64,000 bases of DNA. Source: Microbacterium sp. MYb54 (GTDB lineage: Bacteria > Actinomycetota > Actinomycetes > Actinomycetales > Microbacteriaceae). The notes below the pieces were generated by a model that was given only the letters and a program-made list of their open reading frames with translations, searched no databases and was not told the DNA's origin. Positions 2,617 to 8,725 of this stretch are shown here, in pieces. Position 1 is the stretch's first letter. Each line of letters starts with the position of its first letter. The position numbers and the translations under genes are program-made. Where the stretch lies: positions 124,001 through 188,000 of the forward strand of contig NZ_PCPA01000001.1 in NCBI RefSeq assembly GCF_002979515.1, given 5' to 3'.

Positions 2617-4893
2617 TTGGAAGGTCCTGAAATCACCGCCACCGAGGCCGTTCTCGACAACGGCCGCTTCGGCACCCGCACCATCCGCTTCGAGACCGGC
2701 CGCCTCGCGCAGCAGGCTCAGGGCGCAGTCGCCGCGTACCTCGACGGCGAGACCATGCTCCTCTCGGCCACCAGCGCAGGCAAGCACCCGCGCGAGGGCT
2801 TCGACTTCTTCCCGCTGACGGTCGACGTCGAGGAGCGCTCCTACGCTGCCGGCAAGATCCCCGGCTCGTTCTTCCGTCGTGAGGGCCGCCCCTCCACCGA
2901 GGCGATCCTCGTCTGCCGTCTGATCGACCGTCCGCTGCGTCCGTCGTTCGTCGACGGCCTGCGCAACGAGGTCCAGATCGTCATCACGGTCCTCTCGATC
3001 GCTCCGGGCGAGTTCTACGACGCTCTCGCGATCAACGCCGCGTCCGCGTCGACCCAGATCTCGGGTCTGCCGTTCTCGGGCCCCGTCGCCGGTGTGCGCC
3101 TCGCGTTCATCCCGGGTCACGGCGAGCACGCCGACCAGTGGGTCGCGTTCCCCACGGCCGAGCAGGTCGCAGAGGCCGTGTTCGACCTGATCGTCGCCGG
3201 TCGCGTCGTCACGAAGGCCGATGGCACGGAAGACGTCGCGATCATGATGGTCGAGGCCGAGGCCACCGAGGGAAGCTGGAACCTGATCAAGGCCGGCGCC
3301 ACCAAGCCGAACGAGGAGATCGTGGCCCAGGGCCTCGAGGCCTCGAAGCCGTTCATCGCCCAGCTCGTCAAGGCTCAGGCCGAGCTCGCAGCGACGTCGT
3401 CGAAGGAGCCGGGTGTGTACCCGGTCTTCCTGCCGTACTCGGAAGAGGTCTACAGCTTCGTCTCCGAGCGCGCGTTCGCCGAGCTCAGCGATGTCTACCA
3501 GATCGCCGACAAGGTCGAGCGTCAGACCGCTGACGATGCGATCAAGGACCGTGTCAAGGCGGAGCTCATCGAGGCCACCGAGGCGGGTTCGCTCCCGGCC
3601 GCGGCTCCGCTCGAGTTCTCCGCCGCGTACAAGTCCGTCACGAAGAGGATCGTCCGCGGACGCATCCTCACCGAGGGCGCTCGTATCGACGGTCGTGGCC
3701 TTGCGGACATCCGTCCGCTCGACGCCGAGGTGCAGGTCATCCCGCGCGTGCACGGTTCCGCGATCTTCCAGCGCGGCGAGACTCAGATCCTGGGTATCAC
3801 CACGCTGAACATGCTCAAGATGGAGCAGCAGATCGACTCGCTGTCGCCCACGACGAGCAAGCGCTACATGCACCACTACAACTTCCCGCCCTACTCGACC
3901 GGTGAGACCGGCCGTGTCGGTTCGCCGAAGCGTCGCGAGATCGGGCACGGCTTCCTCGCCGAGCGCGCGCTCGTGCCGGTGCTGCCGAGCCGCGAGGAGT
4001 TCCCGTACGCGATCCGTCAGGTCTCCGAGGCGCTGAGCTCCAACGGCTCCACGTCGATGGGCTCCGTCTGCGCGTCGACCCTGTCGCTGCTGAACGCGGG
4101 TGTGCCGCTGCGCGCTCCCGTCGCCGGTATCGCGATGGGACTCGTGTCCGATGAGGTCAACGGTGAGACCCGCTACGCGGCGCTCACCGACATCCTCGGT
4201 GCAGAAGATGCACTGGGCGACATGGACTTCAAGGTCGCCGGAACCGGTGAGTTCATCACCGCCATCCAGCTCGACACGAAGCTCGACGGCATCCCGACCT
4301 CGGTTCTCGCCGGTGCGCTCACCCAGGCCCGCGATGCTCGTCTGACGATCCTCAACGTGCTGAACGCCGCGATCGACGCTCCTGACGAGATGGCGCCGAC
4401 CGCGCCTCGCGTCATCAGCGTGCAGATCCCGGTCGACAAGATCGGCGAGCTGATCGGCCCGAAGGGCAAGACGATCAACGCGATCCAGGACGAGACCGGT
4501 GCACAGATCTCCATCGAGGAGGACGGCACCGTCTACATCGGCGCGACCGACGGCCCTTCGGCTGAGGCCGCCCGTGCCCAGGTCAACGCGATCGCCAACC
4601 CCACCAACCCGGAGGTCGGGGAGCAGTTCCTCGGCACCGTCGTGAAGATCGCCACCTTCGGTGCGTTCGTCTCGCTGCTTCCGGGCAAGGACGGCCTGCT
4701 GCACGTCACCGAGGTGCGCAAGCTCGCCGGTGGCAAGCGTGTCGAGAACGTCGACGACGTTCTCTCGGTCGGCCAGAAGATCCTCGTGAAGATCACGAAG
4801 ATCGACGACCGCGGCAAGCTGTCCCTCGAGCCTGTGCTCGATGACGCGGCTGCCGCTGACGCAGCTCCCGCAGAAGACGCTGCGGCCGAGTAA
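2617..4893 (+). CDS. pnp: polyribonucleotide nucleotidyltransferase (PNPase)
   Basis: 758-residue 3'-5' phosphorolytic exoribonuclease that degrades mRNA and structured RNA in a homotrimer. Two RNase PH domains are separated by the alpha-helical domain; the second RNase PH domain contains the FERGET-like stretch IFQRGETQ and the GDMDF active-site region. A KH domain ([14 protein letters not shown]) and an S1 domain ([12 protein letters not shown]) follow, then an acidic Ala-rich tail. Translation starts at TTG 2617, 5 nt after a strong ribosome binding site (AGAAGGAGA). It is monocistronic with a strong terminator. Family length and domain order are normal. Confidence 0.97.
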
Positions 4894-5112: not shown

Positions 5113-6141
5113 ATGCGGTTGTTCAGCGTAGGCGCAGGGGCGTCCGCAGAACGCGCCCAGCACGAGGGTGCGGAGCATCCGTCCGCGCCGATTCCGATCG
5201 TCGGGCCCGGCATAGGAGAAACCATCCGCGTCTCGCTCGGCGAGACCGGATTCGAGACATTCCCGCTGATGCTGGGTGCCGCGGAGTTCGGCTGGAACGT
5301 CGACCTCGAGACGAGTCACGGCATCCTCGATCGCTACGTGGAGTTCGGCGGCAACGCGATCCACACGGCCGACGGATTCTCCGGCGGGCGCAGCGAGCAC
5401 ATCATCGGACAGTGGCTACGTTCCCGCGGTCGTCGCGATCGAGCGCTTCTGAGCGTCCGCATCGGAGCTCATGCCGACAATCCGGGCCTCGGCTCGGTCA
5501 ACCTCGTCCGTGCCGTGGAGGGCTCGTTGACGAGGCTCGGCGTCGACCGCATCGATGTCCTGTACCTCGACGCCACCCTCGACGCGACCACGAATCTCGA
5601 AGACACGCTGGCGACTGTAGAATGGCTCACCGACGCCGGCAAGATCGGCGCCCTGGGAGCATTCGGTTTCGCGCCGGAGCGTCTCGTCGAGGCGCGGATC
5701 CTCGCCGCGGCCGGTTATCCGCGCATCCAGGTGATCGACGCGCCGTACAACCTCATCAGGCGCCAGCCCTTCGAAGGTGACCTTCGTCTCGTGGCCGGTG
5801 CGCAGCACTTGGCGGTCACGCCGTCGCACGCGCTCGAGCACGGGTTCCTGTCCGGTCGCCACCGCAACAAGGCGCTCACATCCCGCGGCGTTCGTGGCGA
5901 GCAGTTGCGCGGCCACCTGAACAGGCGCGGCATCAAGATCCTTCGTGCACTCGATCAGGTTGCTGAAGAGCTCGCGGTTCCCGTGGCCGCCGTATCCGTG
6001 GCCTGGCTGCTCGCTCAGCGCACGGTCGCAGCGCCCATCGTGAACACTTTCGCAACCGATCATGTCGACGAGCTCATGCAGGGCGCGGGCGTCTCGCTCT
6101 CGCGAAGCCAAGTCGCTGAGCTGACCCGGGCAGGCAACTGA
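5113..6141 (+). CDS. aldo/keto reductase-fold protein without the catalytic tetrad
   Basis: 342 residues with recognisable aldo/keto reductase (beta/alpha)8 features: RVSLGETGFETFPLMLG at 39-55, GRSEHIIG at 92-99, DRIDVLYLD at 145-153, and a C-terminal VAAVSVAWLLAQRTVAAPIV at 291-310. The usual tetrad Asp-Tyr-Lys-His is replaced: the IDTAD-type Asp is His84, the Tyr is Phe89, the Lys is Arg116 and the His is Asp153. Residues 1-38 are an extension not needed for the fold. Either it is a pseudoenzyme with a binding or regulatory role, or it catalyses something different. The start is ATG 5113 after GGTGAGAG. The frame is intact, so it does not look like a decaying gene. Automatic annotation will probably call it an oxidoreductase; I would not assume activity. 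Confidence 0.8.
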   Translation: MRLFSVGAGASAERAQHEGAEHPSAPIPIVGPGIGETIRVSLGETGFETFPLMLGAAEFGWNVDLETSHGILDRYVEFGGNAIHTADGFSGGRSEHIIGQWLRSRGRRDRALLSVRIGAHADNPGLGSVNLVRAVEGSLTRLGVDRIDVLYLDATLDATTNLEDTLATVEWLTDAGKIGALGAFGFAPERLVEARILAAAGYPRIQVIDAPYNLIRRQPFEGDLRLVAGAQHLAVTPSHALEHGFLSGRHRNKALTSRGVRGEQLRGHLNRRGIKILRALDQVAEELAVPVAAVSVAWLLAQRTVAAPIVNTFATDHVDELMQGAGVSLSRSQVAELTRAGN

Positions 6142-6145
6142 GCAT

Positions 6146-6173
6146 CCTTCCACCTGTGACATAGGGTGGAAGG
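6146..6173 (+). terminator. hairpin after the AKR-like gene
   Basis: CCTTCCACC (6146-6154) and GGTGGAAGG (6165-6173) form a perfect 9-bp stem 4 nt after the stop codon. There is no T-run, and a TAGGGT -10-like hexamer overlaps it (6162-6167), so it could be a terminator, a promoter element for the next gene, or both. Confidence 0.5.
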
Positions 6174-6210
6174 GAGGCCCGGCGGATGCTGGCGATGAAG
6201 CGAGCGAGTT

Positions 6211-6813
6211 GTGACGCACTACATATATCTGGTCAGACATGGTGAACATCAGGATGCAGAGCACGGTCTCGCCGACGGACCCCTCTCGCCGCGAGGACAG
6301 CGTCAGGCCGAGCTGATCGCCGACCGGCTCTCCGGGCTCCCGCTCGACGCCGTCTGGCATTCGCCGTTGCTGCGTGCCAACGAGACGGCCCGCGCGATCG
6401 CTGCACGCCTGCCGTCCGTCGACCCCGAGCCGACCGCGCTCCTCTTCGACTGCGTGCCCACCGGGATGACAGAGGAGACTCCCGCGGTGTTCGAGCCGTT
6501 CTTCGGTTCGGTGACCGAGGCCGAGATCGAAGCAGGACGCGCGCAGATGTCTGACGCCGTCAACGAGTTCCTCGTGCGCAAGACCGGCGACGTGCACGAG
6601 GTGCTGATCACGCACAACTTCGTGATCTCCTGGTTCGTCCGCGAGGTGCTCGCTGCTCCGGAATGGCGGTGGATGACCCTGAACCAGTCGCACTGCGGGC
6701 TGACGGTCATCGCTCAGAAGCAGGGGCGTCCGTGGACGCTCCTCACCCACAATGACACCGGTCACCTTCCGGTGGAGCTGCGTACCGGAATCCCCGACGC
6801 GCTTCTGGTCTGA
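6211..6813 (+). CDS. histidine phosphatase family protein
   Basis: 200-residue phosphoglycerate-mutase-like phosphatase. The phospho-acceptor motif RHG is at residues 9-11 (YLVRHGEH), the arginine-containing segment HSPLLRANETA follows near 50, and the second catalytic histidine is in LITHNFVISW. This fold dephosphorylates small phosphoesters or phosphoproteins; the substrate cannot be read from sequence. Start GTG 6211 gives the family N-terminus directly before the RHG strand; the ribosome binding site is weak. It ends 2 nt from the converging patatin gene. Confidence 0.88.
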   Translation: MTHYIYLVRHGEHQDAEHGLADGPLSPRGQRQAELIADRLSGLPLDAVWHSPLLRANETARAIAARLPSVDPEPTALLFDCVPTGMTEETPAVFEPFFGSVTEAEIEAGRAQMSDAVNEFLVRKTGDVHEVLITHNFVISWFVREVLAAPEWRWMTLNQSHCGLTVIAQKQGRPWTLLTHNDTGHLPVELRTGIPDALLV

Positions 6814-6814
6814 G

Positions 6815-7741
6815 TCACTCCCAGAAGTCGGTGAGTGCCACCGCCGCGGCTCGACCTTGGCGGAAGCCCGCTTGAGCGGCAGGCACGCGCGTCGACGGAT
6901 CCATCACGTTCTCACCGAATGCGCCGCGTGATTCGTCGTCCGGAAAGATGGTCCGCACACTGCTGCCCTGCGAGCGCAGACGGTCGATCTGAGCGGACAG
7001 ATGGGTGCCCCACGTGACGGGCATCCTCGACGCCCCTCCGAAGGGTGCCAATATGAGGACCTTCGTGTATCCGAGCGCGAGGTCGGCATTCTCGGCATTG
7101 GCGCGGTAGCCACCGTCGATGTACCGTGACGCACCGACGTCGTAGGCGAAACCGCTGGCGCAACTGGCGGCCACGGCGTCAACGAGAGCGACACCGCTGA
7201 ACCGGTCGAACACGACGGGCTCACCGGTTGACGCATCGACCGCGGTGAGGAGTATCCGCTGCTCCGGCCACTCGGGGCGTGGCAGCCGCGCCGCGACGGT
7301 CTCCCGCCATCGCTGACCGGCGCCTGCCGACGTGGTGGCCAGCTCGATCGCCGCCGCCCCCATCCTGCGGCGCATATCCTCGACGTCTCGTGAGGCGTCG
7401 ATGATTCGTTGAGTCCGCTCCAGATGAGCTGCGGCCGAACCGCTCTGGCCGCGCGCCGTCGCACGTCCGCTCGGGGTCGCGTGTGGACTCACAGCGCTGG
7501 AGATGACGTCGTCGAACAACTGAGCCGGTGAAGTACCGGTGATCTGGGCCGCTGCGGTCGCTCCGGCAGACGTGCCGACGATCAGATCGGCGGCGTTCGC
7601 GTCGAGTCCGGCATCCGCGAGGCCGGCGACCACGCCGATCAGCCAGGCGTTGCCCGCTGAGCCGCCTCCGCCGAGGACGAGCGCGCGCTGTGTCGTGTTT
7701 CCCTCATTCGTGGAAGAGGAGGGAGAGAAGGTGTTGTTCAT
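6815..7741 (-). CDS. patatin-like phospholipase family protein
   Basis: 308-residue predicted serine lipase or acylhydrolase with the patatin catalytic dyad. The glycine-rich oxyanion motif GGGGSAG is at 24-30, the nucleophile elbow GTSAG at 56-60 (Ser58), and the catalytic Asp is in DGGYRANAEN (Asp209). No signal peptide or membrane helix is seen, so it is likely cytoplasmic. ATG 7741 is chosen because it follows AAAGGCA at good spacing and directly precedes the family core; an in-frame ATG at 7822 would overlap the leader ORF described separately. The gene is transcribed away from dapB and preceded by a short upstream ORF with a far better ribosome binding site. Confidence 0.88.
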   Translation of the reverse strand: MNNTFSPSSSTNEGNTTQRALVLGGGGSAGNAWLIGVVAGLADAGLDANAADLIVGTSAGATAAAQITGTSPAQLFDDVISSAVSPHATPSGRATARGQSGSAAAHLERTQRIIDASRDVEDMRRRMGAAAIELATTSAGAGQRWRETVAARLPRPEWPEQRILLTAVDASTGEPVVFDRFSGVALVDAVAASCASGFAYDVGASRYIDGGYRANAENADLALGYTKVLILAPFGGASRMPVTWGTHLSAQIDRLRSQGSSVRTIFPDDESRGAFGENVMDPSTRVPAAQAGFRQGRAAAVALTDFWE

Positions 7742-7784
7742 GGGAGTGCCTTTCGCGAATGCGTGGCGGGGCTCCCGATCTCGA

Positions 7785-7844
7785 CTACCGGCGTCGCGCG
7801 AGAGTGTGAAGAGAGGGAGCACCCATCAGGGATACTGCGTTCAT
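7785..7844 (-). CDS. 19-residue upstream ORF (candidate leader peptide) of the patatin gene
   Basis: On the minus strand a near-perfect ribosome binding site GGAGGTGA (around 7850-7857) sits 6 nt before ATG 7844, opening a 19-codon frame, MNAVSLMGAPSLHTLARRR, that stops with TAG at 7785. It ends 43 nt before the patatin start and is in another frame. This is the strongest Shine-Dalgarno sequence in the neighbourhood. A leader peptide ending in three arginines could control downstream translation or termination through ribosome stalling. Its translation is not proven and no homolog is known to me. Confidence 0.5.
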   Translation of the reverse strand: MNAVSLMGAPSLHTLARRR

Positions 7845-7984: not shown

Positions 7985-8725
7985 ATGACTACGCAGGTAG
8001 CACTCGTCGGCGGAACCGGGAAGCTCGGCACGATCATCGGTGCGGTGATCGATGAGCTCGAGGGGTTCGAGGTGACCCGTGTGCTGACCTCGTCAAGCGA
8101 CCTCTCCGAACTTCAAGGCGCAGATCTCGTGGTCGATGCTTCGACCCCTCAGGTGAGCATCGAGGTCGTCCGCGCCGCCGTGGAGCGTGGCATCAATGTG
8201 CTGGTCGCGACGTCGGGGTGGTCAGCGGAGCGGATCGCCCTGGTGCGTCCTCTCGTCGAAGCAGCGGGTACCGGAGCGGTCTTCATCCCCAACTTCTCGC
8301 TCGGCTCTGTTCTCGGCTCTGCGCTGGCGGCGGCGGCGGCACCGTTCTTCGGCTCCGCCGAGATCGTCGAAGCACACCGCGAGACGAAGATCGACTCTCC
8401 CAGTGGTACGGCGGTTCGCACCGCGGAGCTGATCGCGGCGGCCCGTGCGGAGCAGGGACCGGTCAGCGCACCGCACGCGGATCAGCGCGCCCGAGGCCAG
8501 CAGGTCGGCAGCGTTCCGATCCACTCGCTGCGTCGTCCCGGGGTCGTTGCCAAGCAGGAGGTCATCCTCTCGGGACCCGGCGAGTCGCTCACGTTCACGC
8601 ACGACACGACCGACTCGGCGCTCGCCTATGCGCCGGGCATCCGGCTCTCCGTGCCGTTCGCATTGAAGGCCACCGGCGTGGTCGTCGGCCTCGAGCACAT
8701 GATCGACATCGGCATCCGGTCGTGA
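7985..8725 (+). CDS. dapB: 4-hydroxy-tetrahydrodipicolinate reductase
   Basis: 246-residue NAD(P)H-dependent reductase of the diaminopimelate/lysine pathway, feeding peptidoglycan and lysine. The N-terminal Rossmann motif VALVGGTGKLG is at residues 5-15 and the family signature EAHRETKIDSPSGTA carries the catalytic His and Lys. Length matches the family. The mRNA appears leaderless. The stop codon overlaps the start of the next gene (TGATG), so the small membrane protein downstream is translationally coupled. dapA and dapF are elsewhere in the window, not in one operon. Confidence 0.96.
   Translation: MTTQVALVGGTGKLGTIIGAVIDELEGFEVTRVLTSSSDLSELQGADLVVDASTPQVSIEVVRAAVERGINVLVATSGWSAERIALVRPLVEAAGTGAVFIPNFSLGSVLGSALAAAAAPFFGSAEIVEAHRETKIDSPSGTAVRTAELIAAARAEQGPVSAPHADQRARGQQVGSVPIHSLRRPGVVAKQEVILSGPGESLTFTHDTTDSALAYAPGIRLSVPFALKATGVVVGLEHMIDIGIRS

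Follow-up and report, generated by a model that had tools for sequence, protein, structure and literature searches.

Few reductases are as widespread as the aldo/keto reductases (AKRs). In one described member, AKRtyl, the nicotinamide of the cofactor is stacked on Trp214 and its carboxamide is contacted by Ser160, Asn161 and Gln186; the Y53F variant is inactive, and the H130A variant is down 50-fold (accessible part of PMC10923870). Pseudoenzymes are already well known as a class (accessible part of PMC10211241; PMC5106787).

The window analysed here is a 64,000-nucleotide stretch of the genome of Microbacterium sp. MYb54. Next to pnp, this soil bacterium carries a gene whose product has kept the shape of an AKR, has lost its reaction centre and probably does a different, non-reducing job.

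The AKR-fold gene next to pnp and its catalytic positions

The gene and its neighbours in the window are as follows:

2617..4893, + strand: pnp (polynucleotide phosphorylase), conserved upstream neighbour (Pfam RNase_PH, PNPase, KH and S1)
5113..6141, + strand: gene of the putative AKR-fold pseudoenzyme, 342 aa (ORF, Pfam, predicted structure and relatives)
6211..6813, + strand: histidine phosphatase (PGM-like, hereafter PGM), conserved downstream neighbour (Pfam His_Phos_1)
7985..8725, + strand: dapB, further downstream (Pfam DapB_N/DapB_C)

The AKR-fold ORF starts with the ATG at 5113, 219 bases after the pnp stop, and ends with the stop codon at 6139-6141. A search around the gene for σ70-like promoters and for terminators found none, which carries little weight in such a genome. 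Between PGM and dapB there is an opposite-strand ORF (6815-7822, - strand), which we take to be patatin-like from its GGGGSAG and GTSAG motifs; in several other Microbacterium loci the PGM-dapB gap is only about 40-115 bases.

Pfam PF00248 (Aldo_ket_red) covers residues 52-339 of the window protein (E 5.6e-39). The AlphaFold model (pLDDT 91.8, pTM 0.88), in which residues are numbered as in the protein minus 19, has its best PDB match in 7utf_C (Z 40.2, rmsd 1.4, 288 residues aligned). An earlier model built from 52 Microbacterium sequences was poor (pLDDT 64.6) and was set aside. The (beta/alpha)8 AKR-type barrel is thus assigned by both Pfam and the model, and the fold is kept as far as structure prediction can tell.

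The sequence-only reading had claimed that all four catalytic residues of this AKR fold are replaced, and Pfam, HMMER alignments, the model and control AKRs bear this out. The family tetrad Asp-Tyr-Lys-His (D-Y-K-H) reads His84-Phe89-Arg116-Asp153 in the window protein:

5362..5364, + strand: His84 codon CAC, at the catalytic Asp position of AKRs, strand 2 of the barrel
5377..5379, + strand: Phe89 codon TTC, at the catalytic Tyr position
5458..5460, + strand: Arg116 codon CGC, at the catalytic Lys position, strand 3
5569..5571, + strand: Asp153 codon GAC, at the catalytic His position, end of strand 4

In HMMER alignments with four solved AKRs, the catalytic Asp, Tyr and His are matched each time by His84, Phe89 and Asp153. 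Arg116 falls on the Lys in three of them (8hwn, 7utf and 9wk1); in the alignment with 4xk2, a four-residue insertion shifts it off the Lys position. When the window protein is aligned with D-Y-K-H copies of its own family, there is no gap at any of the four tetrad residues. The idea that intact catalytic residues might be found elsewhere in the barrel received no support from the alignments and strand positions.

By Pfam, the genome of MYb54 encodes 15 AKRs, of which the pnp-linked one scores weakest. The remaining 14 all read D-Y-K-H, the His lying in the second matched piece in three of these controls. Among 17 paralogue and outgroup rows, two of them AKRs from the same genome, 16 read D-Y-K-H and one E-Y-K-H. 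Ordinary AKR variation as the cause of the altered tetrad was rejected on these two sets of controls. A second, diverged AKR gene was seen near the pnp-linked one in four genera (L139 5305-6180, L153 1707-2618, L165 5124-6035 and L173 1465-2385), and AKR genes are also present on contigs of a viral collection (L256-L290).

Conservation, origin and erosion of the altered tetrad

A close match to the window protein (E<=1e-90) was retrieved from 355 of 366 Microbacterium genomes, the tetrad being read in those of them that were fetched. D-Y-K-H occurs in none of 168 pnp-linked Microbacterium rows (L001-L033, L059-L138, L179-L204, L206-L208, L211, L225-L229 and L236-L255; some genomes appear twice), so that the catalytic motif of the family is lost in sequence. 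These rows collapse to 140 distinct core sequences including that of the window, 134 from a main clade and six from strongly diverged, eroded copies described below; ten other-genus rows without D-Y-K-H (L143, L148, L169 and L217-L223) and eight paralogue rows (L205, L209, L210, L212-L215 and L224) were kept out of this set. Main-clade tetrads are HFRD (108), HYRD (24), HYKD (1) and TDRD (1), and the eroded copies carry HDRD (3), HFRD (1), HLRD (1) and QERD (1). Position 84 is His in 138 of the 140 sequences (Thr in L228, Gln in L211), position 116 is Arg in 139 and Lys in one, and position 153 is Asp in all 140. Position 89 is softer, with Phe in 109, Tyr in 25 (together 134) and other residues in six. 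The expectation that the same substitutions recur in orthologs behind pnp thus holds within Microbacterium, at the same place, with three of the four residues near-universal; for the fourth, the claim of replacement has to be relaxed to Phe or Tyr, and Lys116 survives in a single sequence.

In all 113 Microbacterium rows compared for gene order (L001-L033 and L059-L138), the AKR-fold gene has pnp upstream and PGM downstream of it, both on its own strand; a number of loci have dapB beyond PGM. One of the 113 rows, from Microbacterium sp. NIBRBAC000506063 (L122), has a partial pnp match: the best match ends at residue 501 and leaves 989 bases to the AKR-fold gene, an interruption that we ascribe to a disrupted frame or to misassembly. 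Among 80 close relatives that carry names, 74 are titled Microbacterium and the other six are named at family or higher rank only.

Selection maintains the gene across species. Relative to the window genes, the median dN/dS over 77 common loci, obtained by a simple counting method at a median silent-site distance of 0.89, was 0.092 for the AKR-fold gene, compared with 0.069 for PGM, 0.105 for dapB and 0.112 for pnp.

In other genera the tetrad reads differently. The best other-genus matches that were read first carry D-Y-K-H in 25 of 25 cases. Of the 85 genera searched, 53 had a match at E<=1e-60, a threshold that would miss strongly diverged copies; 40 regions were fetched from these, one per genus, and 37 read D-Y-K-H, the exceptions being DAKD (L143), VHRE (L148) and DVTR (L169). 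Position 84 is Asp in 39 of the 40. PGM lies downstream in 37 of these regions, and in 22 the fetched stretch shows pnp upstream. The comparison set of 61 distinct D-Y-K-H sequences was picked by that very reading, so that 25/25 and 37/40 are the informative figures. A search of 297 genomes at order level (E<=1e-55) gave 23 genomes with a match, including one from outside the family (38% identity).

Further genomes were read for the three exceptions. In the genus of L148, all five rows are altered (VHRE in three, VHRQ and VHHE), and in that of L169 all three genomes with a match carry DVTR. A second genome from the genus of L143 reads D-Y-K-H (L216), pnp and PGM being absent from the fetched stretch.

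In trees built without the tetrad columns, Microbacterium forms one clade (support 100 in a quick tree, 100/100 in a careful one), and the DVTR row sits among D-Y-K-H rows elsewhere in both. The VHRE and DAKD rows join Microbacterium in the quick tree (support 91) and are not resolved in the careful one. Since 37 of the 40 other-genus copies keep D-Y-K-H, the altered tetrad is, judged from the sequences compared, a derived state of Microbacterium and not of every pnp-linked AKR. The position of the DVTR row among D-Y-K-H rows, with Microbacterium as one clade, implies that the tetrad was lost here independently at least twice, and perhaps three or four times. The sequence-only reading had named orthologs that keep the tetrad as evidence that would overturn it; there are none among the 168 Microbacterium rows read, and the syntenic copies of other genera do keep D-Y-K-H, which limits that reading to the genus.

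The pnp-linked AKRs of three other genera of the family (L036, L044 and L051) likewise lie between pnp and PGM; unlike the window protein, to which they are 48-51% identical, they retain D-Y-K-H. L036 and L044 share with it an N-terminal extension of the HPSAPI type. This extension, with an HPSAPIP-type motif, occupies residues 22-35 of the AKR-fold protein (window 5176-5217), mostly at low confidence in the models. It is common to Microbacterium and some D-Y-K-H relatives (L034, L036, L044 and L139); a narrow pattern missed it in most of the remaining 40 other-genus regions.

Certain other genera have, between the AKR gene and PGM, an ORF that carries the motif HFLEHLLFKG, presumably the signature of an M16 peptidase (L148 735-2237 and L142 1749-3128). 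No ORF of this type is present at 6141-6211 of the window, and no Peptidase_M16 match was found in the window's genome. A tie between loss of the tetrad and loss of the peptidase-like ORF was rejected: in L036 and L044, which read D-Y-K-H, PGM lies within about 170-200 bases of the AKR gene, and L148, which reads VHRE, retains the ORF.

Of the 11 Microbacterium genomes without a close match, six carry a strongly diverged copy, four a deletion, and one (G575) is a 72% complete assembly. Five of the six eroded copies are flanked by PGM and dapB in the fetched stretch, four of these five by pnp as well; the sixth (L203) has only pnp beside it. In the four deletions (G411, G453, G494 and G654; L308-L311), pnp and PGM adjoin, and a tblastn search of the gap detects no AKR; the two ORFs of L308 are separated by about 115 bases. 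A tree of pnp and PGM joins the eroded and lost genomes in one clade (support 99), with the losses nested inside (inner supports 84-86). The eroded copies are 38-43% identical to the window protein at PGM identities of 76-80%, compared with about 60-68% for main-clade copies at like PGM identities. All six keep Arg116, Asp153 and an acid at position 209 (Asp in four, Glu in two), and five keep His84; Glu58 is lost in four and Ser238 in five. As a sequence pattern, this retention is compatible either with fold stability or with a small site that has been kept. Deletion and erosion within one Microbacterium clade mean that the role of the gene is dispensable in at least one lineage.

The remodelled site and its possible roles

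Positions were called newly fixed when a residue is present in at least 97% of main-clade sequences and in at most 10% of D-Y-K-H copies. There are 13 such positions among 304, and six of them belong to 13 listed AKR-site positions (Fisher p 2.4e-6); with the tetrad removed, three are among nine listed site positions (p 0.002), both p-values flattering the result since the list was made from AKR contacts after the alignment had been seen. The positions outside the tetrad that matter for the argument are:

5284..5286, + strand: Glu58 codon, newly fixed (Glu in 134 of 134 main-clade sequences, mostly Val in D-Y-K-H copies)
5662..5667, + strand: Phe184-Gly185 codons, where AKRs have the Ser-Asn pair that binds the carboxamide (matched by motif position)
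5737..5739, + strand: Asp209 codon, at the carboxamide-contacting Gln position of AKRs (Asp in 133 of 134 main-clade sequences, mostly Gln or Glu in D-Y-K-H copies)
5824..5826, + strand: Ser238 codon, at the nicotinamide-stacking aromatic position of AKRs (Ser in 134 of 134; Tyr, Arg or His in D-Y-K-H copies)
6043..6045, + strand: Asn311 codon, end of strand 8 (Asn in 134 of 134; Ser or Gly in D-Y-K-H copies)

In the model, Glu58 lies just past strand 1 and Asp209 within strand 6, and Phe184, Ser238 and Asn311 sit at the ends of strands 5, 7 and 8, respectively. Matched by motif position, Tyr53, His130, Ser160, Asn161, Gln186 and Trp214 of AKRtyl, as given in the accessible part of its description, correspond to Phe89, Asp153, Phe184, Gly185, Asp209 and Ser238. 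The window protein thus lacks, as far as its sequence tells, the nicotinamide contacts of AKRs (Ser-Asn pair, Gln and stacking aromatic). Most of these contacts are replaced in all Microbacterium copies read at the locus. Replacement of the tetrad and of the contact positions, together with the behaviour of the AKRtyl mutants, makes NADPH-dependent reduction very unlikely.

The protein is, on this sequence evidence, probably a conserved AKR-barrel pseudoenzyme that would carry out no NADPH-dependent carbonyl reduction and would be kept for a binding or structural role. Without the Tyr and the His there would be no acid/base step, and without the nicotinamide contacts (Ser-Asn pair, Gln and stacking aromatic) no productive NADPH binding. 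Since the buried centre retains its charges (Asp84 and Lys116 ancestrally, Arg116 and Asp153 now), we read them as a re-sited ion pair: the carboxylate partner of the buried Lys would have moved from position 84 to 153 as the Lys became Arg. The Arg116-Asp153 pair may then stabilise the barrel around the dead centre, and the remodelled mouth (Glu58, His84, Arg116, Asp153, Asp209, Ser238, His239, His243 and Asn311) may bind a non-nicotinamide ligand or a protein partner. Counter-examples to the ion pair are the VHRQ and VHHE rows, two of the five from the genus of L148, and the DAKD row (L143), which keeps Asp84.

The strongest competitor, which we hold to be unlikely, is a non-redox enzyme (a hydrolase, isomerase, lyase or metal enzyme) that would use His84, Arg116, Asp153 and Asp209, with Glu58, Ser238, His239 and His243 near by. 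The predicted structure places these residues at or just past the C-terminal strand ends or in the loop after strand 7, that is, in the active-site zone of TIM barrels, and main-clade sequences show little or no variation at them. Tentatively, the reciprocal Asp/His exchange and the replacement of the cofactor site could have produced a His-Arg-Asp centre backed by the acid at position 209; the joint claim, that this happened while sister genera still hold the ancestral reductase at the locus, is similarly doubtful. What the eroded copies keep of this site (Arg116, Asp153 and the acid at 209 in all, His84 in all except one) speaks for such a centre, and their frequent loss of Glu58 and Ser238 against it. 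The place of Arg116 between His84 and Asp153 in strand order disfavours a metal site, and no precedent for such chemistry is found among the literature matches listed. The fixed new mouth residues, with the lasting His84 and acid at 209, could nevertheless speak against a pseudoenzyme and for a new reaction. Because these two residues outlast most changes in the eroded copies, we lowered our estimate for the pseudoenzyme slightly and raised that for a new reaction slightly.

It is improbable that the gene is simply on its way out, having lost catalysis and drifting without function before deletion. Such a course is seen in one Microbacterium clade, with its six eroded copies and four deletions (support 99); across the main clade, a dN/dS of about 0.09, the presence of a close copy in nearly all genomes of the genus and new residues that are fixed rather than drifting argue against it. 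We consider it about as improbable that the protein is still a reductase with an altered mechanism, in which the exchanged Asp and His together with the Arg would do the acid/base work and NADPH would be bound otherwise. In favour of that mechanism, the site retains its charges (Asp/Lys to Asp/Arg), and 25 of the 140 sequences still have Tyr89. Against it stand Phe89 in 109 of the 140, the replacement of the Ser-Asn, Gln and stacking positions, and the fact that Y53F alone fully inactivates AKRtyl (accessible part of PMC10923870). An alignment or frame artefact hiding an intact tetrad can practically be dismissed: its sole support is the shifted Lys position in the 4xk2 alignment, the other three solved AKRs and the family alignments agree, and the same procedures recover intact tetrads in the controls, which already contradicts it.

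Thus, of the two outcomes that the sequence-only reading had offered, the conserved pseudoenzyme is strengthened by recurrence, purifying selection and loss of the NADPH contacts, and new chemistry was neither established nor discarded.

Comparison with known systems

An AKR pseudoenzyme conserved across a genus, or an altered AKR tetrad, was not met with among the open-licence literature matches listed, and the accessible main text of PMC10211241 holds no AKR case ('aldo' occurs 0 times). A domain search alone would label the gene a reductase, which is a warning for annotation.

The closest sequence matches of the window protein in PDB are DepB (8hwn) and the deoxynivalenol AKR 7utf (E about 1e-31), which have the same fold (288-296 residues, Z 39-40) at 29% identity. 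Both carry Asp-Tyr-Lys-His; in the window protein all four residues are replaced and the cofactor site is rebuilt. The fold is shared as well with AKRtyl/AKR12D (8jwk-8jwo; Z 38.8) and with the beta subunit of Kv channels (AKR6; 1zsx and 1exb; Z 38.9). The Kv beta subunit is an AKR barrel with a mainly regulatory role that binds NADPH and keeps the Tyr and much of the site. In the pseudoenzymes treated in the accessible part of the review PMC10211241 (POMK), a catalytic motif is lost on a conserved fold and charged residues are re-sited, as here; the re-sited pair of the window protein differs in that it looks structural, not catalytic.

Pseudoenzymes as such being known, what is new is an AKR-fold variant documented as an evolutionary series. 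The locus shows the stages together: intact copies in sister genera, the remodelled form in Microbacterium, and eroded copies and deletions in one of its clades. It thus lends itself as a natural system in which to study how the fold of a barrel outlives its reaction centre, and whether a new function preceded the loss.
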